Source: a virus
Virus record (IMG/VR): IMGVR_UViG_3300006810_000484
Coordinates: 1 to 21,321 of that record
DNA: 21,321 nt
Strand: one strand, 5' to 3'
Of this stretch, positions 10,345 through 21,095 are shown piece by piece. The position numbers and the translations under genes are program-made. Numbering within the stretch: the first letter of the stretch is position 1; every line of letters starts with the position of its first letter. Under the pieces are notes generated by a model. The model saw only the letters and a program-made list of their open reading frames with translations, was not told the origin of the DNA and did no database searches.

Positions 10345-13300
10345 ATGCCTCAAATAAATTTTAAAAATACTCTTCTTAATGTTCCTGACACTATTGCAGG
10401 GAAACCTTTTTTAGAGGCTACAAACGCTGAAAGATTAGATTTTTTAAATTTAGTTGAACAGAAAAACCCTGGTATTTTTGATCAAGAACAAGAGATAGAT
10501 TATTCTTACGATGCAGGAGAAGATCAAGATGTCGGTATGGGTGAAGGACTTGTTAACGCTCTTGGTAGGGGTATTAATCATTTAACTACTGGTCTTGCTA
10601 TTAATGCAGAGAGAGCAGGTATAATAAGCCCAGAAACTGCTGCCGAACAAGTAGCACAAGACGCAGAGGATATGGCACAGTATCCTATGAGTGAATCTGT
10701 AGGATCAGGTTTAGAGGAGATACAAAAAGCAGAAGGTTTTGGAGATAGTGCTTTGGCTATTATTCAAAATCCCGGTGCAGTTGTTGATGTTGCAGTTCAA
10801 AGTTTAGCGAGTTCGATACCCTCTATTGCAGGAATGATTGGTGGTGGTCTAGCTGGCTTTGCTGTTGGTGGTCCAATAGGGGCAGCTATAGGAGCCGTTT
10901 CAGGATCTGGTTTAGGATCTTATGGCGTTGAGTGGGGTAGCACTGTAGCTCAAGAAATGCAGAAAGAAGGCATAGATCTTGATAGCTATGATGAAGTTAA
11001 AAACTTTTTAAACGATGAAGCTAAAATGAAGAAGGCAGGTGCTTTTGCAGAAAGTAGAGCTATACCAATAGCTGTCTTTGATGGCATCACTGCTGGTGTT
11101 GCAGGTAGATTAGTAAAGCCTGTTTCAAAAATAGTTGCAGGTTCAGCATTATCTGAAAGTGCTGAGATAGCTGCTAAAGAAGCAGGTAGGAAAGCCAGAC
11201 AGAAAGTTATAGACAATGCTTCTTTTCTTATGAAAAGAGGAAAGACTGACGATCAAATAGCAAAGATAGCTGCGAGAGCAGAAGTTAAAGCTAGTGATAC
11301 TGTAAGAAGAAAATCTTTAGGAAGATTAGCAGTAGGTGTTGGTGTTGGAGCAGAGCTTGGTGTGCAAGCTGTTGGTGGTGGCGCAGGAGAAGCTTCGGCA
11401 CAAGTAGTTTCTGAAGGTGCTATAACATCACCTGGGGAAGTCTTGCTTGAAATGTTTGCGGAGTTACCATCAGGTGCTGTGGAAACAGGTGTTGGTGTAA
11501 TGTCAAACCAAAGAAATATGGCAAAACTTAAAAAAGCTAAAATATTAGATGAGAATGTTATTAACAATAGTAGTGTGGAACTAGATAAAGCAGATGCAAA
11601 CGCTCCAGTAGGAGCAGCCATAATGCAGTCCATACCTAATTATACTGGTGGTGCAAACGCGATATTGTATGGTGATGTTGATAATAATATTGTGGGTGGA
11701 TTTGAACAAAATGCTATTAACCTTATTAATGCTAATCTAAATAATTTTGAATCTGATACGGACACTGTAAGTGTACAAGATAATGAAGATGGAACTTTTG
11801 ATTTAGTTGCTAGTTTTGGAAAGCTTACTAATTTAAAGTTTAACAATAAAGATGTTGCTGAAAAAACAGCATTAAATATTAATGAAAATTTAACTACTTC
11901 CTTAAAAGATAAGGAAAGGAACTACGATTATATAACTGCAAGAAATGAACTGATTGAAGAAGAGGTTAAAGCTAAAGCAAAAGCAGATGGCAAAACTAAA
12001 AACTTTAATTTAATAAAATCTTTTAACGAATTTGACCCTAGATTAATCTCAGAAAAAGAAATCCAAGAAAGAATGGAGCTTTTAAAACCTTTGGTTACTT
12101 TAACTGAGTTTGAAAAAGCAAGAAAAATAGTTATAGCTGAAAAAAAATATGATAGAAATATTCTTAGAGTAAAAATGAAAGAGCAGGGTATTGAATTAAC
12201 AAATAAACAATCGACTCAAATTCAAAAAATGTTAAGGTTACAAGGAGTTTTAAAACAAACTGGTAATTTTGTTTATGCAACTTTTGATCCAAGAGGTCAA
12301 AAACAACTTACAGTTAGCAGAGATGCTGAAGGATTAATAGCTGCACAGAAAGAAAATAAATCAATAACAATAGATGAAGACGCAAAAAAAATTATGGAGG
12401 AGGCTGTTAAAAAGGCTGCTGAAGAGGCTACTGCAAAGGCTGACGCAGAAAATGTTGCAGGAGTTTCTCAAACAACACTTGGTGGTACAGATGGTGAATC
12501 AGGAAAAAATTCTAATAGACCTAAAGAAACTGTATATTTTGATGACGACAGTCCTTCTTTAGATATTTCTAGTCTACCTGAAAAATCAAGAAAAAAATAT
12601 TTAAACACTCAAGAAATCTATAGGGCTTTGCCAGGAGGTATGAGAGTAGGAGTGCTTACAGAACTACGTAAAGCTGCTAAAACTACTGAAGAAAAAAATA
12701 CATTCAAAATAGAAATTGACGAGATTCTTGCTCAACAAAATGAGGTTAGAGATAAGGAGGTTAGAGATAAAAAAAATAAGGCAGCAGATGCTGCAAAAAA
12801 AACAGCTGATTCTCTTGACGCACAATATAAAGCTATATTAGATAATTCTATATTAGAAGAAAAAGTGAATAAACTAGGTCCAGAAGATAAAGTTTATTCT
12901 TCAGAGAATATCAAATCAAAATTAGATAAATCATTTTCTCAAAAAGCAATAGATATTGCTAACAGCAAATTATTTTACCATGAAGAATTTTTATCTAAGT
13001 TTAGTGAAACTTTTTTACCTAGATTAATAGAAAACTTTAAAACTATTACATCAACATCAGAAACATCAGATAAAGATTTTGATGTTGCAATTAATTTTGT
13101 TCGGTCTATTGAAGGAACAGATAGTAGTAAACCTACTGCTTTGTTAAGGGAGCAGGAAGGTAAAATTATTATTGATATTGCTGCTGGGGCTTTAGGTACA
13201 ACCAACACTAAAAAACAAGAACAGATTATTGCTGAAATAATACAAGAAGAAGGTTTTCATGTTATTACAGATTTAGCAGAACGAGAAATGGGACCTTTAA

Positions 13301-16300
13301 GTAAAGGGGATATAGTTAGCTTAAGAAAGTTTGTAAGAAAAGCAACAGATCCACAAGATAAAAGCAAAACTTACTATGATGTTGCTAAAGAAAAATATAA
13401 AAATAATGATAGGTATCAATCAAGTGGAAAACTTAATGAAAAATTAATTGAAGATGAAGCTATGGCTGCTGCTTATGTTCAATACATTGCTGATGGTTCT
13501 ATAAGTAGTGCAAAAGAAGAAATGTTGTATGGAAAAATAAAACTTTTCATGAGATCTATTTTAGACGCTTTAAAAAATACAAAAGTAAAAAATATTTTTC
13601 AAAGAATATCAGATGTTACTGATGTTGATGGCGGTATTGAAGCATCTACACTTAGAAGAAATAAAAAAGTTGCAGTAGATAAATTAATAAATCTTTCTAA
13701 TACTAAAGAGGGAGTAGTTTTTTCAAAAGAAGAAATAAATTCTATTAAAAATCCTATTGAAAAAGAAATACAAGAAAAAATTAATGGAGGAAAAATTAGT
13801 CAAGAAGCTGGAGAGGCTGCTTTAAACATATTAAAAGATTATAATCCTAATAGCCGTGTTTCTATTAGAAAATTATTTGATGAAACTAAAAAAATAATTA
13901 ATGAAAGAAATAGTGTTGTTAATAGCGAAACAAGTAGATTTATAAAAAATGCAAAGAAAAAATTCGGCATAGGAAAAAATAATTCAACCGAAACTGTAGG
14001 GTCTACTATTCTTGATAGAGTTTATGGCAATACTTGGAATAAAAAAATAGCTGAAATAGGTTTAAGGTTTAGAGAAGCTTTTATTAACGATCTTGATTAC
14101 GCTTCTAGATTGGATAAAGTGGTTGCCTCCGCAGAGGGTGATAGAATGGCTGATGTCAGTTCTCATGCTGCTTTGCAGATGGCAAAAAATGCTGCGGCTA
14201 TTTTAAGTGGTGCATTAAATATAGGTGTGCCTAATTATCTTTCTTCTAGTCAAAGAGGAAAAGGTTTTATTAGTAATCAACCTTTTACAGAAACGAAAGA
14301 TGGTAAAGAATATAATATTGGTGGGTTGATAGACACTGTTTTAAATGATGTTATAGAGAATGGCACTGAAGAAGATTTTCAATTATACATGGTAGCTCAA
14401 AGAGAGCTAGAGATTCATAATAGTAATGAAACACAACGTCTTAATGTAATGAGTGCAGACGAAGCTCAATCTTATATTAATGAATATAATAATACACATC
14501 CATACTTTGGAGAAACAGCAATAAAATTAAATATGTATTTTAATAAACTTGCAGATTTTCAAGTAAACGCAGGTGTTTTAAGTAATAGTAAAAGAGAGGA
14601 ATACAAACAATCTTTATTCTATATTCCTATGTACAGAGAGGTAAGCAATAAATCTAATAAAACATTTAATCCAACAATAGATGAACCAGTTAATATTTTG
14701 TCAGATAGTATTGAACTAGGTAGCCAACCTTCTAGCTACAAAGCTCCATCAGGTAAAAGAAAGTTAAAAGCAGGAGCCGGGAAAGTATACAGGATCTACT
14801 TTAGTAATGGAGATGTTAGTAGTAGTTTCTTTAGAAATATGGCAGAAGTTGAAGCTTACATAAAAGAGCTTAAAGGATCTGGAAATTTTGATGTAAAAGA
14901 AATGTCTCTCGTTGAAACAGGGCAACCTGTTTCTAATATATTTAATAATCTTATTATTAATATGAGTGAAGCTATTGAAGCATCAGCAAGAAACATAGCT
15001 ACTCAAAGAGTAGTTAGGGATGCTTTAAAACTAAACACAATAACTCGCACCAGTGAAGATGTTATCGAAGGAGTAGCAGGGGCAACTCGCAAGAAAAAGG
15101 GTGATCAAGGCAACACTGTTTCTGTTTATGTTAATGGTGAAGAAAATAAATTTATTATGCATGACCCTATGTTGTTTCAGATGTTGACATCATTAGATGA
15201 TCCAAGCGTATTGGGTGATGGTTTTTTATCTAAGCTAGGTACACTTCCTGCTAATGCTTTAAGAGAGCTTGTGACTAAAGACCCAGGGTTCATGTTGGCA
15301 AATTTTTTCCGTGATTCTTTAAGTGCTTATGTTACAAGTGGTAGAACTAATGCTCCTTTAGTTGACTCAATTAAAGGATTAGCATCTGCTGTAGGAAACA
15401 ATTCAAGTGCAGAGGCTTTAAGGAGGGCTGGTATTAAAGGTGGTTTTGATTGGAGTAAGTCTGGTGATAGTGATGCAATCAAAGAAGTAGAAAAAATAAT
15501 TAATAAAACTTTTCCCGGTAGAAAGAAGTCTACTTTAAAAACTGTTTCTTCTCCTTTGAGATATCTTTGGGAAAAATTAGATAAGGGAACTGAGAACTCT
15601 GACCTTGCAACAAGAATAGCTGTATATAACGATGTGTACGCAAGAACAGGCAACGAGGCTCAAGCTATATGGGAAGCTCAAGAAGTATTAAATTTTAGAA
15701 GGCGTGGAAAGTATATGAAGGCAGTGACTGCCATCATTCCATTTTTAAATGCTAGGATTCAGGGTTTAGATATTCTTTTTAGAGGGTTCACTGGTGATGC
15801 AGCATCTTCAAATGCAGAGCTTACAAGAGAAAGAGTAAAAAAATTAGCATTCTTTAGGGCTTCTTATTTAATTGGTTTTACAAGTCTGTTGTGGTTTATG
15901 CAATACGATGATGATGAATGGGAACTTATAGAGGATTCTAAAAGAGATAACAATTGGATTATATTAGGTAAATATTTTGGCAGACCTGATAGCTTTATAT
16001 CTTTACCTATTCCTTTTGAAATAGGTTTATTAACTAAAACTATTCCTGATAGAATACTAAGTTATTACTTAGGCACTGATACATCAGCAGATTTAAAAAG
16101 ATCTTTTGGTTCAGCTTTATTTGGGACACTAGGAGTTGGTTTTCCAACTACTATTCAACCTATTTTAGAAACAATGACTAATTATAACTTCCTTACAGGA
16201 AGAAAGATACTGAGTGATTATGAGCAGAACTTAGATCCTTCAACTGTCGTTAGACCATCAACATCAGAGCTTGCACAAAAAGTAGCATCTCTTACAGGCT

Positions 16301-16800
16301 ACACACTTACTCCTGTAGAGGTTGATAACATTATTAGGGGTTACTCTGGCACGTTAGGTTTTCATGTAGTAAGAATGATAGATACTGTCTTACCTGATGA
16401 TATCACAAAACCTTCTAGAAGAATTGAAGAGTATCCTTTCGTATCAAGAGTGTTTAATAATCTAAGTGGTGCTAAAGGTGTTACTGGTGAAATATATCAA
16501 TTAAATAATAGTTTAACAAAGATTACTCGTGCTGTAAGAGACAATGAACACATGGGTAATTATGATAGAGCGAATCAAATAGAAGAGGATAATATAGACA
16601 TTCTATCTTTTGAAAGTGAAATAAGGCGTTCTGTAAGAAACCTACAAAAGATTAACAAAAAATTAAAACTACTTAGTTTATCCAAGGGTGATTACTCTCA
16701 AGAGTTTGTTGATGAGGAAAGAAAAAATCTTGAGTTCGCAAGAAGGTTAGAGGGACAAAGAGTTAAGTTTATAAAAGAACAATTAAAGGCAAGAAAGTAA
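10345..16800 (+). CDS. Giant polyvalent-type internal virion protein with LPD38-like C-terminal region (2151 aa)
   Basis: This is the largest gene, about 30% of the window. The N-terminus (MPQINFKNTLLNVPD...ATNAERLDFL) is followed by a glycine-zipper hydrophobic region (about residues 162-193). A segment then has the GAGEASAQVVSEG and LEMFAELPSGAVE pattern common in large phage ejection proteins. The centre is Lys/Glu/Asn-rich and AT-rich. It includes a winged-helix-like stretch near 615-660 (QIQKMLRLQGVL, DPRGQKQL) and a zincin-like segment at 968-1045 in which HExxH reads E968-E-G-F-H972, with E1038 downstream. The C-terminal half holds an LPD38-like region: LRELVTKDPGFMLANFFRD (1639-1657), NFRRRGKYMKA and PFLNARIQG (1799-1807). 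LPD38 marks 'polyvalent' phage and conjugative-element proteins. A role as an injected protein is inference. No convincing SD precedes the ATG. Confidence 0.65.
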   Translation: MPQINFKNTLLNVPDTIAGKPFLEATNAERLDFLNLVEQKNPGIFDQEQEIDYSYDAGEDQDVGMGEGLVNALGRGINHLTTGLAINAERAGIISPETAAEQVAQDAEDMAQYPMSESVGSGLEEIQKAEGFGDSALAIIQNPGAVVDVAVQSLASSIPSIAGMIGGGLAGFAVGGPIGAAIGAVSGSGLGSYGVEWGSTVAQEMQKEGIDLDSYDEVKNFLNDEAKMKKAGAFAESRAIPIAVFDGITAGVAGRLVKPVSKIVAGSALSESAEIAAKEAGRKARQKVIDNASFLMKRGKTDDQIAKIAARAEVKASDTVRRKSLGRLAVGVGVGAELGVQAVGGGAGEASAQVVSEGAITSPGEVLLEMFAELPSGAVETGVGVMSNQRNMAKLKKAKILDENVINNSSVELDKADANAPVGAAIMQSIPNYTGGANAILYGDVDNNIVGGFEQNAINLINANLNNFESDTDTVSVQDNEDGTFDLVASFGKLTNLKFNNKDVAEKTALNINENLTTSLKDKERNYDYITARNELIEEEVKAKAKADGKTKNFNLIKSFNEFDPRLISEKEIQERMELLKPLVTLTEFEKARKIVIAEKKYDRNILRVKMKEQGIELTNKQSTQIQKMLRLQGVLKQTGNFVYATFDPRGQKQLTVSRDAEGLIAAQKENKSITIDEDAKKIMEEAVKKAAEEATAKADAENVAGVSQTTLGGTDGESGKNSNRPKETVYFDDDSPSLDISSLPEKSRKKYLNTQEIYRALPGGMRVGVLTELRKAAKTTEEKNTFKIEIDEILAQQNEVRDKEVRDKKNKAADAAKKTADSLDAQYKAILDNSILEEKVNKLGPEDKVYSSENIKSKLDKSFSQKAIDIANSKLFYHEEFLSKFSETFLPRLIENFKTITSTSETSDKDFDVAINFVRSIEGTDSSKPTALLREQEGKIIIDIAAGALGTTNTKKQEQIIAEIIQEEGFHVITDLAEREMGPLSKGDIVSLRKFVRKATDPQDKSKTYYDVAKEKYKNNDRYQSSGKLNEKLIEDEAMAAAYVQYIADGSISSAKEEMLYGKIKLFMRSILDALKNTKVKNIFQRISDVTDVDGGIEASTLRRNKKVAVDKLINLSNTKEGVVFSKEEINSIKNPIEKEIQEKINGGKISQEAGEAALNILKDYNPNSRVSIRKLFDETKKIINERNSVVNSETSRFIKNAKKKFGIGKNNSTETVGSTILDRVYGNTWNKKIAEIGLRFREAFINDLDYASRLDKVVASAEGDRMADVSSHAALQMAKNAAAILSGALNIGVPNYLSSSQRGKGFISNQPFTETKDGKEYNIGGLIDTVLNDVIENGTEEDFQLYMVAQRELEIHNSNETQRLNVMSADEAQSYINEYNNTHPYFGETAIKLNMYFNKLADFQVNAGVLSNSKREEYKQSLFYIPMYREVSNKSNKTFNPTIDEPVNILSDSIELGSQPSSYKAPSGKRKLKAGAGKVYRIYFSNGDVSSSFFRNMAEVEAYIKELKGSGNFDVKEMSLVETGQPVSNIFNNLIINMSEAIEASARNIATQRVVRDALKLNTITRTSEDVIEGVAGATRKKKGDQGNTVSVYVNGEENKFIMHDPMLFQMLTSLDDPSVLGDGFLSKLGTLPANALRELVTKDPGFMLANFFRDSLSAYVTSGRTNAPLVDSIKGLASAVGNNSSAEALRRAGIKGGFDWSKSGDSDAIKEVEKIINKTFPGRKKSTLKTVSSPLRYLWEKLDKGTENSDLATRIAVYNDVYARTGNEAQAIWEAQEVLNFRRRGKYMKAVTAIIPFLNARIQGLDILFRGFTGDAASSNAELTRERVKKLAFFRASYLIGFTSLLWFMQYDDDEWELIEDSKRDNNWIILGKYFGRPDSFISLPIPFEIGLLTKTIPDRILSYYLGTDTSADLKRSFGSALFGTLGVGFPTTIQPILETMTNYNFLTGRKILSDYEQNLDPSTVVRPSTSELAQKVASLTGYTLTPVEVDNIIRGYSGTLGFHVVRMIDTVLPDDITKPSRRIEEYPFVSRVFNNLSGAKGVTGEIYQLNNSLTKITRAVRDNEHMGNYDRANQIEEDNIDILSFESEIRRSVRNLQKINKKLKLLSLSKGDYSQEFVDEERKNLEFARRLEGQRVKFIKEQLKARK

Positions 16801-17235: not shown

Positions 17236-19023
17236 ATGGCAGGTGGTGGTGGCAATTATAATTTTTCAAATGCTCCTAGTTATGGGAATCCTAATTTAGG
17301 AACATTCCAAACAGGCATGGGTGGTGGTGGTTATTTACCTCCTACATCAGGCATGGGTGGTAGTTATTCACCACCATCATATGGATACATGGCTCCTCAA
17401 AACTTCACAGTGCAGACACCTAGTGGTATTGGCACTACTTCATCTCTTTCACCAGAAGCGCAAACAGTTCTTGAAAATGCCGGGGCTAATGTAACCTCAC
17501 CTCCAGAAGCAGATCCAATCACAACACCTGATATGGACACAATGGCAAGCACAGCACCTGTTACAACAGCAAGCACTTCTTCTCCAGCGTTTAACAATAT
17601 GAATATGGATTTCATAAGAAATGTTGCTTCAAGGTATCTAAGTCCACAGAGATTTTCATCTCCACAAAGATACGGAATTTCTCAATTCTCTGGAGGTCCT
17701 GGTAACTTTGGAAGAATGGGTGGTATGCTTGGGCTAGGTGGATTCCAACAGCCTTATTACTCTTCTTCAACCCCATCTATGGGTACGACTGCCTCTGACC
17801 TTGATGCCACTAATAGAGGTTATGGAGATATGTATCGTGCGTACAGAGGAATGGGTGGAACTGAAAGAGAGTTTGTTGATTCAGATCAGTTTAAAGATTT
17901 TGAAAATGTTTTGTTAGATCAGATATCTACTTTAGATGATAGAGGTAGATTAGAAAGTGACCTGTTAACACAGAGAGATCGTGCCGCTAGTGGTAGCATT
18001 TACTCTCCGTCTGCTCAAAGAGTGACAAACGCTATCCAAAGAAGAATAAATACTCTTCAACAAGCTCCGAGAAGACAAGAGAGTTATTTATCTACACCTT
18101 CTTTTAGACCCAACTACAATACATATCAACCACAACCTTATACTAACCCAATGATGGCGTATAGGAACCAGTTTAGCCCTCAAATGGGCTACGGCAATCA
18201 GTATAATTCTAGGATGGGATACGGTAATCAATCTAACCCTATGATGGGGTATGGTCTTGGTGGAATGTCAAATAGATTTAGTAATGCGCCTAATCAATTT
18301 GCGAGTTCTATGTTTGCCAATGTTCCTAATTATTATACAAGGAGATACAATAGTCCTCCTCTTTACAGCACAACACCTGGGGCATATACCTATGGTTTAG
18401 GATCTATTGACAATGCTCCTACAGGCACTTCAAATACTGGGGTAACGGGTGGTCAGGATACAGGTAAGACGGCACAAGAAATAGCTGATATAGCTTCGGT
18501 AAAGGGTGGTAGTCTTTTCGGAGTTGACGGGTTAGTTCGGAACCCAGATGGTTCATATACTTATATGCCAACTAATCAGGAGATGTCAGCTTTTTTCCCA
18601 GAAGGAGGGGTACAACTCCCATCAAGTTTTGATGTTACTCAGTTGACAGGATATGACCCGGCTCAAGCTGAAGAAGAAACAACTGAAGAGACTACAGATA
18701 CAGGAGGACCTGATGTGGATACATCTGCTTCTGATGGGACTGTAGATCTTACGTCTTTTGGAGATGATAATTTAAGCTTAACACAGCAGTTCTCAAAAGA
18801 AGCAGCAGCCTTTGAGGGTGGAGAGAGTGCCTTTGTAAACAGTCCTAGATTTATGGAATTTGAAGGTGCTTTAATAAGACAGTACATAGATAAATCTCCT
18901 GAAGAAGTAAGGGCAGAAGCTACTAGACAGCTAGAAAGATCTAACGCTGGTGGAATATACGCACCATCAGCCAAAAGGATTTACGATTCTCTTAACTCTT
19001 ACGCTACATCAAGAGGTGCTTAA
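17236..19023 (+). CDS. Low-complexity Gly/Tyr/Asn/Gln-rich protein with duplicated C-terminal domain (595 aa)
   Basis: ATG 17236 has an AGGAT SD (6-nt spacing) overlapping the lysozyme stop. Residues 1-130 are Gly/Pro/Tyr/Ser/Thr low complexity (MGGGGYLPPTSG, GMGGSYSPPSYGY). Residues 301-340 contain four imperfect decapeptides of the type NQxxxxMGYG. Two copies of a ~65-residue helical domain are present, at 210-274 and 530-595. Both start with F-V-(D/N)-S-x-x-F-x-(D/E)-F-E and, 42-43 residues on, have (S/G)-I-Y-(S/A)-P-S-A-(Q/K)-R. An acidic Thr/Glu linker (about 475-505, EEETTEETTDTGG) precedes the second copy. I know no characterised homologue. The composition resembles tail or virion-associated structural proteins. 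No enzymatic motif, signal peptide or membrane span is evident. Confidence 0.7.
   Translation: MAGGGGNYNFSNAPSYGNPNLGTFQTGMGGGGYLPPTSGMGGSYSPPSYGYMAPQNFTVQTPSGIGTTSSLSPEAQTVLENAGANVTSPPEADPITTPDMDTMASTAPVTTASTSSPAFNNMNMDFIRNVASRYLSPQRFSSPQRYGISQFSGGPGNFGRMGGMLGLGGFQQPYYSSSTPSMGTTASDLDATNRGYGDMYRAYRGMGGTEREFVDSDQFKDFENVLLDQISTLDDRGRLESDLLTQRDRAASGSIYSPSAQRVTNAIQRRINTLQQAPRRQESYLSTPSFRPNYNTYQPQPYTNPMMAYRNQFSPQMGYGNQYNSRMGYGNQSNPMMGYGLGGMSNRFSNAPNQFASSMFANVPNYYTRRYNSPPLYSTTPGAYTYGLGSIDNAPTGTSNTGVTGGQDTGKTAQEIADIASVKGGSLFGVDGLVRNPDGSYTYMPTNQEMSAFFPEGGVQLPSSFDVTQLTGYDPAQAEEETTEETTDTGGPDVDTSASDGTVDLTSFGDDNLSLTQQFSKEAAAFEGGESAFVNSPRFMEFEGALIRQYIDKSPEEVRAEATRQLERSNAGGIYAPSAKRIYDSLNSYATSRGA
17863..18057 (+). 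repeat. Duplicated coding domain, copy 1
   Basis: Residues 210-274 (EREFVDSDQFKDFENVLL ... SGSIYSPSAQRV) align with copy 2 at 18823-19020 with a single one-residue gap between the FV(D/N)S and IY(S/A)PSA boxes. DNA identity is low, so the duplication is old. Confidence 0.65.
18136..18255 (+). repeat. Four imperfect decapeptide-coding repeats, NQxxxxMGYG
   Basis: The 30-nt periodic units encode PYTNPMMAYR, NQFSPQMGYG, NQYNSRMGYG and NQSNPMMGYG. The last three are clearly related; the first is degenerate. The Asn/Gln/Tyr/Gly composition is prion-like. Confidence 0.7.
18823..19020 (+). repeat. Duplicated coding domain, copy 2
   Basis: Residues 530-595 (ESAFVNSPRFMEFEGAL ... GGIYAPSAKRI) form the protein C-terminus and mirror residues 210-274. 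Confidence 0.65.
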
Positions 19024-19172
19024 TGTCTGATGTTGAAAAACTAATAAAGAAGGCTAAAAAACAAAAAGAAAAAATACTTGATCAAGAACAGATAATAAAA
19101 GAACAAACCGAAAAAATTAGAAAGCAACTAAACAAAATTAATTTAGATGGAAAGTTAGAGTATTTCAAATGA
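19023..19172 (+). CDS. Small charged coiled-coil protein (49 aa)
   Basis: This frame is too short for routine calling. The ATG at 19023 overlaps the preceding stop (TAATG), and its TGA overlaps the next ATG at 19169 (ATGA). The 49 residues are almost all helix formers with a Lys/Glu/Gln/Ile heptad-like pattern: EKLIKKAKKQKEKILDQEQ, then IIKEQTEKIRKQLNKI. No hydrophobic span is present. Coupled start and stop on both sides, with no gap left for other sequence, support a real gene. Its function is unknown; a short coiled coil next to a two-span membrane protein could be a lysis regulator or assembly factor, which is speculation. Confidence 0.65.
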   Translation: MSDVEKLIKKAKKQKEKILDQEQIIKEQTEKIRKQLNKINLDGKLEYFK

Positions 19173-19381
19173 ATGAGAATATACCTGACAAAAAAATCTA
19201 TCAGTCTAATCGCAGGTATATGTGCTGGTGTTTATTACTTGCAATGTTAGCAACGACTATAGCAACTCTTCTTTATCCTGCTCGAATGGCTGAAGCAGAG
19301 AGTATTATTATGACGCAATACCTTGCAATGTCAGGGGTTGTGGGTGCATACTTTGGTTTCACTTCTAATAGGAAGAAGTAA
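19169..19381 (+). CDS. Putative class II holin-like membrane protein (70 aa, two spans)
   Basis: The 70-residue protein has a basic N-terminus, a first hydrophobic span (about residues 18-36, CWCLLLAMLATTIATLLYP), a short loop with ARMAEAES, and a second span (about 47-65, MTQYLAMSGVVGAYFGF). It ends in a basic tail (SNRKK). Two spans with both ends cytoplasmic and a charged tail are the plan of class II phage holins. The VVGAYFG ending recurs in small marine-phage membrane proteins (from memory). It lies about 1.9 kb after the lysozyme, which lacks an export signal and so needs such a partner. The gene is coupled on both sides (ATGA and TAATG). Two other membrane proteins in the window compete for the holin role. 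Confidence 0.6.
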   Translation: MNENIPDKKIYQSNRRYMCWCLLLAMLATTIATLLYPARMAEAESIIMTQYLAMSGVVGAYFGFTSNRKK

Positions 19382-19572
19382 TGGCTGTTAAAAAGAAAGC
19401 TAAGAGTAAAGTAAATGAGGCAGGTAATTATACTAAACCTGCAATGCGAAAAAGATTGTTTAGTAAAATTAAATCAGGAACTAAGGGTGGTAAAGCAGGT
19501 CAATGGTCTGCTCGTAAAGCCCAGATGTTAGCACAACAATATAAAAAAGCAGGAGGTGGATATCGTGGCTAA
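19381..19572 (+). CDS. DUF5872 N-terminal half, stand-alone (63 aa)
   Basis: The 63-residue basic protein has the signature of the DUF5872 N-terminal half: YTKPAMRKRLFSKIKSGTKG, then GGKAGQWSARKAQMLAQQYK and the GGGY end. In the single-chain versions I recall from phages, giant viruses and bacteria, this block continues directly into a K-S-Q-K-S-L-x-x-W-T segment. Here the protein stops at GGGYRG, and that segment is found in a separate gene at 19764. The start overlaps the previous stop (TAATG). The family's function is unknown; the Lys/Arg-rich W-S-A-R-K-A-Q motif hints at nucleic acid binding, which is inference. Confidence 0.8.
   Translation: MAVKKKAKSKVNEAGNYTKPAMRKRLFSKIKSGTKGGKAGQWSARKAQMLAQQYKKAGGGYRG
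19551..19556 (+). promoter_or_regulatory. Perfect Shine-Dalgarno AGGAGG deciding the GTG start at 19565
   Basis: AGGAGG, the strongest ribosome-binding site in the window, lies inside the end of the DUF5872 half gene, 8 nt before GTG 19565. An in-frame GTG at 19556 overlaps the SD itself and is unlikely to be used. Confidence 0.8.
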
Positions 19573-19795
19573 AGGTGTACCGCATTACTTTAAAGATGGT
19601 AAAGAACACAAGGGTGGTCTTCACAAAATGCCTAATGGACAACTACATTCAGGCACAACACATACAGCAAACAGCAAGAGACTCTTTCATAAAGATGAGC
19701 TTTCTCTTTCTGTACAAAAGAAATTAAAAGATAGCCCAAAGAAGAAATCAAAAGGAAAAGCAAGTGGCAAAACAAAAGTCACAAAAAAGTCTTGA
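19565..19795 (+). CDS. Small basic conserved phage protein inserted between DUF5872 halves (76 aa)
   Basis: The start chosen is GTG 19565, giving MAKGVPHYFKDGKEHKGG, because AGGAGG sits 8 nt before it. The 76-residue product has an N-terminal GVPHYFKDGKEHKGGLHKMP block and a G-Q-L-H-S-G-T-T-H-T-A-N-S-K-R-L-F-H-K motif (about residues 29-47). It ends in a Lys-rich tail (KKKSKGKASGKTK). The HKDGK...HSGxxHTxxSKxLxH pattern is familiar from small phage proteins (from memory), but its function is unknown. The His residues are notable and could bind metal, though no defined finger is visible. It overlaps the genes on both sides, by 8 and 32 nt. Confidence 0.72.
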   Translation: MAKGVPHYFKDGKEHKGGLHKMPNGQLHSGTTHTANSKRLFHKDELSLSVQKKLKDSPKKKSKGKASGKTKVTKKS

Positions 19796-20018
19796 TAAGT
19801 GGACTAAACAGAAGTGGAGAACCAAGTCTGGAAAGCCCTCCACACAGGGCAAGAAGGCTACTGGTGAACGCTACCTACCTGAGAAGGCTATAAAGTCTCT
19901 CAGCAACGCAGAATACGCTGCTACGACTAGGAAGAAAAAGAAAGATACCAAGAAGGGTAAGCAGGTTTCTAAACAACCTAAGAAGATTGCCAAGAAAACT
20001 AGGAAGTACAGGAAATGA
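19764..20018 (+). CDS. DUF5872 C-terminal half, stand-alone (84 aa)
   Basis: GTG start at 19764 with AAGGA 7 nt upstream, inside the preceding gene. The 84 residues are extremely basic (31 Lys/Arg against 5 Asp/Glu). The SQKSLDKWTKQKWRTKSGKP segment, the G-E-R-Y-L-P-E-K-A-I-K-S-L-S block and the ATTRKKKKDTKKGKQ tail match the second half of DUF5872-type proteins as I remember them. Together with the product of 19381-19572 it would rebuild the full-length domain. A nucleic-acid-binding or virion-packaged role is plausible from charge only. Its stop overlaps the next start (ATGA). Confidence 0.8.
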   Translation: MAKQKSQKSLDKWTKQKWRTKSGKPSTQGKKATGERYLPEKAIKSLSNAEYAATTRKKKKDTKKGKQVSKQPKKIAKKTRKYRK

Positions 20019-20341
20019 GTTTAACAGATTCAGAAAAGAACAGACTAAAGAAGGTGGGTCTTAAAGGTTTAAACAAACCTAAGATGACACCATCACACAA
20101 GAGTAAGAAAGCTGTTGTCGCTGTACGAGATGGTAGTAAGGTTAAGGTTATACGCTTTGGTGCTAAAGGTATGGGGCATAACTACAGTCCTGAAGCCAGA
20201 AAGTCTTTCAAAGCCCGGCATGGAAAGAATATTAAGAAGGGTAAGACATCAGCAGCATACTGGGCGAACAAGGTATTCTGGGGTGGTCCAAGTGCAAGAA
20301 AGAAATCTCCTCCGAAGTCTCAGAAGCATAGGTTCGGTTAA
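20015..20341 (+). CDS. DUF6321-like basic phage protein (108 aa)
   Basis: The 108-residue protein carries a characteristic order of motifs. MSLTDSEKNRLKKVGLKGLN and K-P-K-M-T-P-S-H come first, then V-I-R-F-G-A-K-G. The most conserved part follows: KSFKARHGKNIKKGKTSAAY, then W-A-N-K-V-F-W. This S-F-K-A-R-H-x-x-N-I-x-K-G-K-x-S-A-A-Y-W-A pattern is that of DUF6321 (from memory), a small family common in marine phages and of unknown function. It is strongly basic (about 30 Lys/Arg against 4 Asp/Glu). It is coupled by ATGA to the DUF5872 C-terminal half and by TAATG to the next gene. Confidence 0.82.
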   Translation: MSLTDSEKNRLKKVGLKGLNKPKMTPSHKSKKAVVAVRDGSKVKVIRFGAKGMGHNYSPEARKSFKARHGKNIKKGKTSAAYWANKVFWGGPSARKKSPPKSQKHRFG

Positions 20342-20715
20342 TGTTTATAGATAGTTATCCTCAATATATACAGCGTGTTACTAATGCAAAGCTAGATCTG
20401 ACAGGCACAGGGGTTACTGTATTGTACACTGCACCTGCTACAGTTTCTTTCGTTATTGTTAACTCTATCTTAGTGTCTGAGGATTCTGGTAATGCCGATA
20501 CTCTCACCCTCACATTAACAAATGGGTCCGATGTGTTTAGTTTGTTTAAAGTAGCGGCAGTAGGAGCTAACGGCACAGTGGAATTACTAACAAGAGATCT
20601 AGTGCTTCAACCATCAGAGATATTAAAAGCAACAGCAGCTACAGGTAATAGACTTCATGTCGTAGCAGGGGTGCAAGAGTTTGTACGTTCAGTGTCTGGC
20701 AGTGTAGGATTATAG
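20341..20715 (+). CDS. Small beta-rich phage protein (124 aa), possible minor virion or decoration protein
   Basis: The 124-residue protein is predicted to be almost all beta strand. It reads KLDLTGTGVTVLYTAPATVS, then FVIVNSILVSEDSG, TLTLTLTNGSD, TVELLTRDLVLQPSEILKAT and RLHVVAGVQEF. The T-x-L-Y-T-A-P-A...V-N-S-I-x-V...L-V-L-x-P-x-E-I-L pattern is typical of small beta-sandwich proteins often annotated as phage structural or hypothetical proteins. There is no membrane span or signal peptide. The start overlaps the DUF6321 stop (TAATG). The stop lies in the SD of the nuclease gene, so the two are coupled. A decoration or tail-accessory role is inference from fold type. Confidence 0.65.
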   Translation: MFIDSYPQYIQRVTNAKLDLTGTGVTVLYTAPATVSFVIVNSILVSEDSGNADTLTLTLTNGSDVFSLFKVAAVGANGTVELLTRDLVLQPSEILKATAATGNRLHVVAGVQEFVRSVSGSVGL

Positions 20716-20723
20716 GAGTTAGT

Positions 20724-21095
20724 ATGGATGAAAACATTTACAGTTATCGTTGCAAACTTGTACGGGTTGTTGATGCTGATACCAGTGTTGTTGATATTGA
20801 TCTCGGCTTCGGTGTACATCTCAACAATCAGTATATTCGCTTTTATGGTATTGATACTCCCGAATCTCGTACTCGAAACCTTGAAGAGAAAGCTCTGGGG
20901 TTGGCTGCAAAAGCAAGAGCCAAAGAACTCCTGCCCAAAAAATTTATTATGAATACATATAAAGATGGAAAAGGAAAGTTTGGCAGGATACTAGGCAGAC
21001 CTATCTTAGAAGATGGGCGTGATGTGTGTGAGGTTTTAATCTCAGAGGGTCACGCTAGACCTTACTATGGTGGAAAGAAGGAGTCTTGGACATGA
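20724..21095 (+). CDS. Staphylococcal-nuclease-like (SNase) endonuclease (123 aa)
   Basis: This Ca2+-dependent phosphodiesterase fold degrades DNA or RNA. It shows the OB-fold SNase pattern: VVDADTSVVDIDLG, then I-R-F-Y-G-I-D-T-P-E. R39 and E47 are spaced eight residues apart like R35 and E43 of the Staphylococcus enzyme, and R88 (GKFGRILGRP) stands for R87. D19, D44 and T45 match the calcium ligands D21, D40 and T41. The end V-C-E-V-L-I-S-E-G-H-A-R-P-Y closes the fold. At 123 aa without a signal peptide it is a minimal, intracellular version. AGGAG at 20714-20718 gives a 5-nt spacing. Such genes are frequent in marine phages, where host DNA breakdown or nucleotide recycling is assumed. Its place near lysis genes suggests late expression. 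Confidence 0.9.
   Translation: MDENIYSYRCKLVRVVDADTSVVDIDLGFGVHLNNQYIRFYGIDTPESRTRNLEEKALGLAAKARAKELLPKKFIMNTYKDGKGKFGRILGRPILEDGRDVCEVLISEGHARPYYGGKKESWT

Follow-up and report, generated by a model that had tools for sequence, protein, structure and literature searches.

Putative fission of a DUF5872-type phage gene at a glycine loop and repeated insertion of small genes into the junction

Results

The window, by which we mean the whole stretch of 21,321 nt analysed here (IMG/VR virus record IMGVR_UViG_3300006810_000484, positions 1 to 21,321), carries a DUF5872-type protein in two genes, N and C, with a third gene, M, between them. It is likely (probability about 0.7) that this arrangement goes back to a stable fission of a DUF5872-type gene directly after its GGGY motif, where the codons of the glycine loop are ribosome-binding-like, the junction is prone to insertion and the two modules would be translationally coupled.

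Genes in the window

N, M, C and D are four consecutive short and very basic genes, each of which overlaps the next (Table 1). An earlier sequence-only reading had described N as ending with GGGYRG, C as beginning with MAKQKSQKSLDKWTKQKW, and the 76-aa M, with its own AGGAGG, as overlapping both neighbours; coordinates, frames and boundaries were correct. The start codon of M is GTG, located 8 nt after AGGAGG, and M overlaps N by 8 nt. C also starts with GTG, has AAGGAA upstream of this codon (19752-19757) and is overlapped by M over 32 nt. The overlap of C and D is 4 nt (ATGA). A promoter and terminator scan of window positions 18900-20500 gave counts no different from those of shuffled sequences.

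Table 1. Positions of the N-M-C-D genes and of the AGGAGG motif in the window.
Feature	Position	Strand	Description
N gene	19381..19572	+	63 aa, computed pI 11.0, C-terminal GGGYRG; N module of DUF5872-type protein
AGGAGG	19551..19556	+	made up of the A-G-G codons within N's conserved C-terminal KKAGGGY motif; Shine-Dalgarno-like for M
M gene	19565..19795	+	76 aa, computed pI 10.4; insert between N and C
C gene	19764..20018	+	84 aa, computed pI 10.8; C module of DUF5872-type protein
D gene	20015..20341	+	108 aa, computed pI 11.3; next in cassette, frequent neighbour of the family

Three other contigs (L176, L175 and L177) carry the N-M-C stretch with 0, 1 and 1 differences, respectively, over 1390 bases, which excludes an assembly error. 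N and C show the substitution pattern of coding sequence, with changes mainly at third codon positions; M shows a coding pattern against near relatives but not against L037. Changed codons between the window and L037 were 34 synonymous and 6 non-synonymous in N, and 37 and 11 in C. For M, 19 synonymous and 9 non-synonymous changes were counted against the near relative L180, and 10 and 33 against L037, where the M-like gene sits elsewhere.

N and C correspond to consecutive parts of one chain

N matched phrog_17747 over the full length of the profile (E 3.9e-34, residues 3-62 on positions 4-63 of 63) and C matched phrog_14910 likewise (E 2.7e-35, residues 1-84 on positions 1-80 of 80). In PHROGs these are unrelated families of unknown function, but here they are halves of one protein. 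As shown by single-ORF homologues such as L279 and L320, the two blocks are contiguous in one chain elsewhere, as the sequence-only reading had stated. In four of the five fused proteins scanned, the first half matched phrog_17747 and the second half phrog_14910; the fifth, L267, matched phrog_14910 only. L267 matched DUF5872 (PF19197) with 28.6 bits (cut-off 27.5) over profile positions 3-110 of 116, spanning the N/C junction, and other fused members were aligned on positions 4-115 or only 3-74. A DUF5872 match at E≤0.01 was obtained for 23 of 55 fused members (best 4.1e-8). Neither window protein gave a Pfam match, with no hit of any kind for N at E≤10 and none to DUF5872 for C at E≤10, and seven proteins scanned against NCBIfam gave none.

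These profile alignments confirm that N and C are homologous to consecutive halves of a single DUF5872-type chain, each matching a different part of the family and not the same part. The proposal that a DUF5872 domain is split in two thus holds for the consecutive halves, by way of the fused homologues through which the link to DUF5872 runs, but not for direct membership. Because N and C fall short of the DUF5872 profile, we class the window locus as a split homologue rather than a member of the Pfam family. The DUF5872 proteins known from phages, bacteria and giant viruses are single chains, and N followed by C aligns along the fused members. In the window, by contrast, there are two chains, neither of which matches the profile alone, and another gene lies between them. 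One giant-virus gene list includes a DUF5872 protein (PMC12085832).

Split and fused loci

A survey of fused against split arrangements, as the sequence-only reading had suggested, was carried out. In 50,697 phage records, 19 matched N, 19 matched C and 20 matched a fused homologue. The union was 20, in which HMO-2011 is present twice, and 18 phage loci were analysed, of which 16 were split and 2 (S-CRES1 and Hodr) were fused. The survey consisted of these 18 loci, the window and five protein scans of viral contigs (best 80 loci each). Of 342 sources among the matches listed, 209 were split and 67 fused; C occurred alone in 14, N alone in none, and 52 had neither half. These counts reflect the queries used and not natural frequencies. 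The 52 sources with neither half were found by the M query (51) or a fused query (1). N without C was not found in any of the 276 sources with N among the matches listed. Fused forms were seen in bacteria, cyanophages and pelagiphages.

After identical N-C DNA was collapsed, the 276 sources were reduced to 254 distinct loci (190 split and 64 fused), in all of which, among the matches listed, N precedes C in the same orientation. In 97 of the 190 distinct split loci among the matches listed (adjoining loci), fewer than 20 bp separated the N and C HMM matches and no gene intervened; in the other 93 (separated loci) the distance was 35-2095 bp. The fact that the halves adjoin in 97 of the 190 loci indicates that an insert is not needed for the split.

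Four of the 14 C-only loci among the matches listed had a window-like C near the contig start. The other 10 had a more distant stand-alone C of the phrog_23735 type, and no N was found in those contigs. This stand-alone C-like protein (L182:5438-5701 and nine further loci) follows an M-family gene and has the motif WVRIG..CGT..RCLP.

Genes in the N-C gap

Among the matches listed, 91 loci with a gap of at least 60 bp contained 142 mechanically called ORFs in 62 clusters, some of them surely spurious. The recurrent same-strand clusters were M (19 members), a 140-236 aa phrog_32327 protein (19 members) and five others with 4-10 members. Single cases included a methyltransferase and a phrog_3704 'ferredoxin' moron. 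In HMO-2011, an annotated methanesulfonate monooxygenase, a Rieske-type oxygenase, lies inside the gap (L006:3889-4971). The N-C junction is an insertion hot spot for unrelated small genes, and M is one of many. For genomes of the HMO-2011 type, the gap is a site of cargo genes. M itself, in its 79-aa form, had no Pfam match at E≤10 and no PHROG match.

Genes of the T4 type are known in which a homing endonuclease gene has split the coding sequence. The present loci resemble them in that a gene is in two parts with another gene between, and differ in that many split loci have no insert and no endonuclease was found in the gap proteins scanned (none among 10 gap representatives at E≤0.01, and no Pfam match for M at E≤10).

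Sequence of the junction

C started with ATG in 89 and with GTG in 8 of the 97 adjoining loci among the matches listed. N stop and C start overlapped by one base in 76 and by four bases in 10 of these 97 loci (TAATG or ATGA type). The second glycine codon of the GGG motif was GGA or GGG in 72 of the 97 adjoining loci (expected 26.3, z 10.9), in 48 of the 93 separated loci (expected 28.8, z 4.6) and in 18 of 52 fused loci with GGGY (expected 18.2, z -0.1), all among the matches listed; the expectations were taken from the other glycine codons of the same genes, and the z values ignore relatedness, which inflates them. The 12 of 64 fused loci lacking GGGY were left out. The GGG codons are biased to the Shine-Dalgarno-like GGA or GGG in the split form only. 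At the DNA level, the glycine loop is a putative ribosome-binding site of the downstream gene. In the window junction it is the first glycine codon, not the second, that is GGA and completes AGGAGG.

Phylogeny of the two modules

A tree of the joined modules was constructed from 244 rows, after exclusion of duplicate rows and of L141 and L274, which were too short. It required three changes between fused and split, compared with 45-57 in 100 shuffles. A single clade (support 98; 186 rows) contained all split rows except S-EIV1, and L279 was its only fused row. The N-module tree also gave 3 changes and the C-module tree alone gave 11, which points to poor resolution or recombination of C. Presence or absence of an insert changed 42 times on the tree (shuffles 56-73), with at least 11-12 changes on starred branches. 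Since 97 of the 190 split loci adjoin without insert and the insert state changes 42 times, it is most likely that fission came first and that insertions came later and repeatedly. As read from the survey counts and these trees, the split is a stable gene fission and not a recent break.

When the C-module tree was rooted with the stand-alone C proteins, HMO-type split rows were nested within the fused forms; some of the forks had support of 86 and 99, others less than 50. The tree gives moderate support to a derivation of the split loci from within fused forms. The joint trees, built on samples of the split rows, showed exceptions on weak or long branches: the fused L328 and L441 fell within the split clade, and L046, a split row, grouped with fused ones.

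The fused L279 was nested with the split L097 and L050 (support 99), and a wider tree added L422 and L423 (support 100). In these four split loci a small gene stands between N and C. L279 has this small gene upstream of its fused N-C, and shares the gene downstream of N-C with L097, L422 and L423. Because L279 is nested in split relatives and their middle gene now precedes N, it represents a re-fusion with changed gene order.

A scan with the N part of S-EIV1 gave, among the matches listed, 80 loci, of which 59 were split, 20 were fused and 1 had N only (contig end). The split loci likewise have two genes with others between. In all 59, the N part continues through the L-W block and C starts shortly before RYLP. 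The cut lies some 45 residues beyond the first glycine of GGG, within the C module, whereas the window-type cut is right after GGGY. S-EIV1-like split rows formed one clade (100) adjoining fused phage rows (98). Judged from alignment and tree, the S-EIV1-like phages are a case of independent second fission at another loop. In the S-EIV1-like split genes (L342-L421), similar tails of the AAKKYK type terminate both the N and the C part, a possible hint of duplication with reciprocal loss.

Structure models and couplings

AlphaFold2 models were obtained for the fused L279 (pLDDT 81.7, pTM 0.52) and L320 (116 sequences; pLDDT 92.1, pTM 0.61), with pTM values too low to say how the modules pack. 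The junction lay in the least confident inner stretch in L320. N was modelled as a pair of helices, and single bridge residues were assigned at 4 and 48 (GGGY), which suggests that the N chain closes up immediately ahead of the cut. C began at helix 54-63. Mean-field DCA had an alignment of only about 87 effective sequences. N-C pairs made up 11 of the top 80 couplings, compared with 41.4 expected by pair number and 0 in 20 of 20 shuffles. The couplings, being mostly within modules, and the closure of N in the model suggest that the cut lies between two modules and not through one fold.

In a mirror-tree comparison of 20 N-M-C loci, the N-C correlation (r=0.32) did not exceed those of N with M (0.44) and of M with C (0.42), and the test thus lent no support to an assembly of the two chains. 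With the neighbour D in 76 loci, r(N,C)=0.22 against 0.14 and 0.07 was not decisive. Neither model had a match at E≤0.001 in a PDB fold search, and a VIA fold search gave a best Z of 2.7 over 39 residues for the second model and none with Z≥2 for the first. A search by sequence found no relative of solved structure. Against viral models, six matches at E≤0.001 were found, with names mostly missing.

Bacterial homologues

A bacterial genome scan with the fused alignment confirmed 430 stretches, and the best 80 of these 430 comprised 77 fused genes and 3 split ones. Many of the fused genes (L424-L501) were on large contigs of Sphingomonas, Methylobacterium, Belnapia, Roseomonas, Aureimonas and Stutzerimonas. 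The fused protein is common as a bacterial gene in Sphingomonas, Methylobacterium and Acetobacteraceae among the best 80 of 430, and it carries no NCBIfam name. A Rho_N/SAP-like tail was found by pattern in 58 of the 77 fused homologues and by eye in two more; other tails were DUF3140-like (8) or Ala/Lys-rich (8), all among the best 80 of 430. Four bacterial proteins scanned in Pfam had no DUF5872 match at E≤1; Rho_N was sub-threshold in three (E 0.012-0.034) and DUF3140 was strong in the fourth. In RefSeq, an Azospirillum plasmid homologue is named DUF5872 domain-containing protein and several others Rho termination factor N-terminal. No conserved operon was seen in the bacterial gene neighbourhood, where the ORF caller chose antisense frames in high-GC DNA.

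From the Rho_N/SAP-like tails of the bacterial proteins and the charge of the N and C halves, we infer that the DUF5872-type protein may bind nucleic acid. The window N and C have no such tail. With less weight, the N-C pair may be a late-expressed nucleic-acid-binding protein whose halves act together.

Discussion

The fission can be pictured as follows. The glycine loop, lying between two modules, would already encode a ribosome-binding-like sequence. A stop and a nearby start at the loop would then give two translationally coupled modules with neither fold damaged. Fission would be easy because the loop is ribosome-binding-like and lies between modules. Unrelated small genes would afterwards have been placed into the junction repeatedly, with M as the one found here.

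The sequence-only reading had offered another cause for the split, in which a foreign reading frame, M, broke an intact gene, the two parts persisting as separate chains and M possibly joining them as a third subunit. M does lie between the halves here and overlaps both, and relatives of M, of which 110 ORFs were found in the surveyed loci, lie between the halves in 20 of the 190 distinct split loci (both counts among the matches listed). Against this, 97 of the 190 loci among the matches listed have no gene between the halves, the insert state changes 42 times, and the gap holds many unrelated ORFs. A role of M as a conserved third subunit is not supported, since M-family genes also occur in other places, upstream of a fused gene in 17 loci and after C in 4, among the matches listed. 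We regard insertion of M as the cause of the split as very unlikely. It is still harder to accept that adjoining genes are one gene read by programmed -1 frameshifting, with a product that is still fused. The frame of C relative to N is at offset 2 in 88 of the 97 adjoining loci among the matches listed, but TAATG-type stop/start overlaps give this offset anyway. By a simple pattern, a slippery-type heptamer was found no more than 60 nt from the N stop in just 13 of these 97 loci, and the 93 separated loci of the 190 among the matches listed are beyond the reach of frameshift joining.

The split form had also been proposed as ancestral. N and C would then be independent proteins, separate from the beginning and fused later in some lineages, and an interaction would not be required. 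The position of the cut between modules, with 11 N-C couplings in the top 80 where 41.4 are expected, agrees with this, as do the stand-alone C-like proteins in 10 contigs in which no N was found and the negative mirror-tree result. However, N never occurred without C in the 276 sources with N among the matches listed, fused forms are spread over bacteria, cyanophages and pelagiphages, N-C couplings exceed those of shuffled pairing, and in the S-EIV1-like phages the cut falls within the C module. The rooted C-module tree, with moderate and uneven support, places split rows inside fused ones. Ancestral separation is not favoured and seems improbable to us.

Within the preferred reading of a stable fission, it is possible, though we put it forward tentatively, that the codons of the conserved glycine loop provide the ribosome-binding site for the second half of the same protein and so make the gene separable, with cuts at two loops in different phage lineages, cargo genes in the gap and at least one re-fusion, and that the chains work together on nucleic acid.

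Two phage families without known function, phrog_17747 and phrog_14910, are joined here into one protein, which occurs in phages abundant in the ocean as well as in soil-dwelling and plant-associated bacteria. Its fused, adjoining, separated and re-fused forms are a natural series of one small protein, which makes the cost and route of fission and the internal Shine-Dalgarno-like role directly testable. In the literature collection searched, nothing was found on HMO-2011 split or structural proteins, on fission with translational coupling, or on DUF3140.

Other genes of the window

The D protein matched phrog_7595 (E 2e-27) and, in part, phrog_220 (minor head protein and DNA pilot; E 4.3e-11). 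Relatives of D were found by BLAST in 130 of the 254 distinct N-C loci among the matches listed. Positions 20724-21095 encode a Staphylococcal-nuclease-like endonuclease (PF00565, E 2.9e-9; phrog_452, E 2.1e-29). A 2151-aa ORF (10345-16800) lies directly upstream of a 143-aa ORF and a 595-aa Gly/Tyr-rich ORF.
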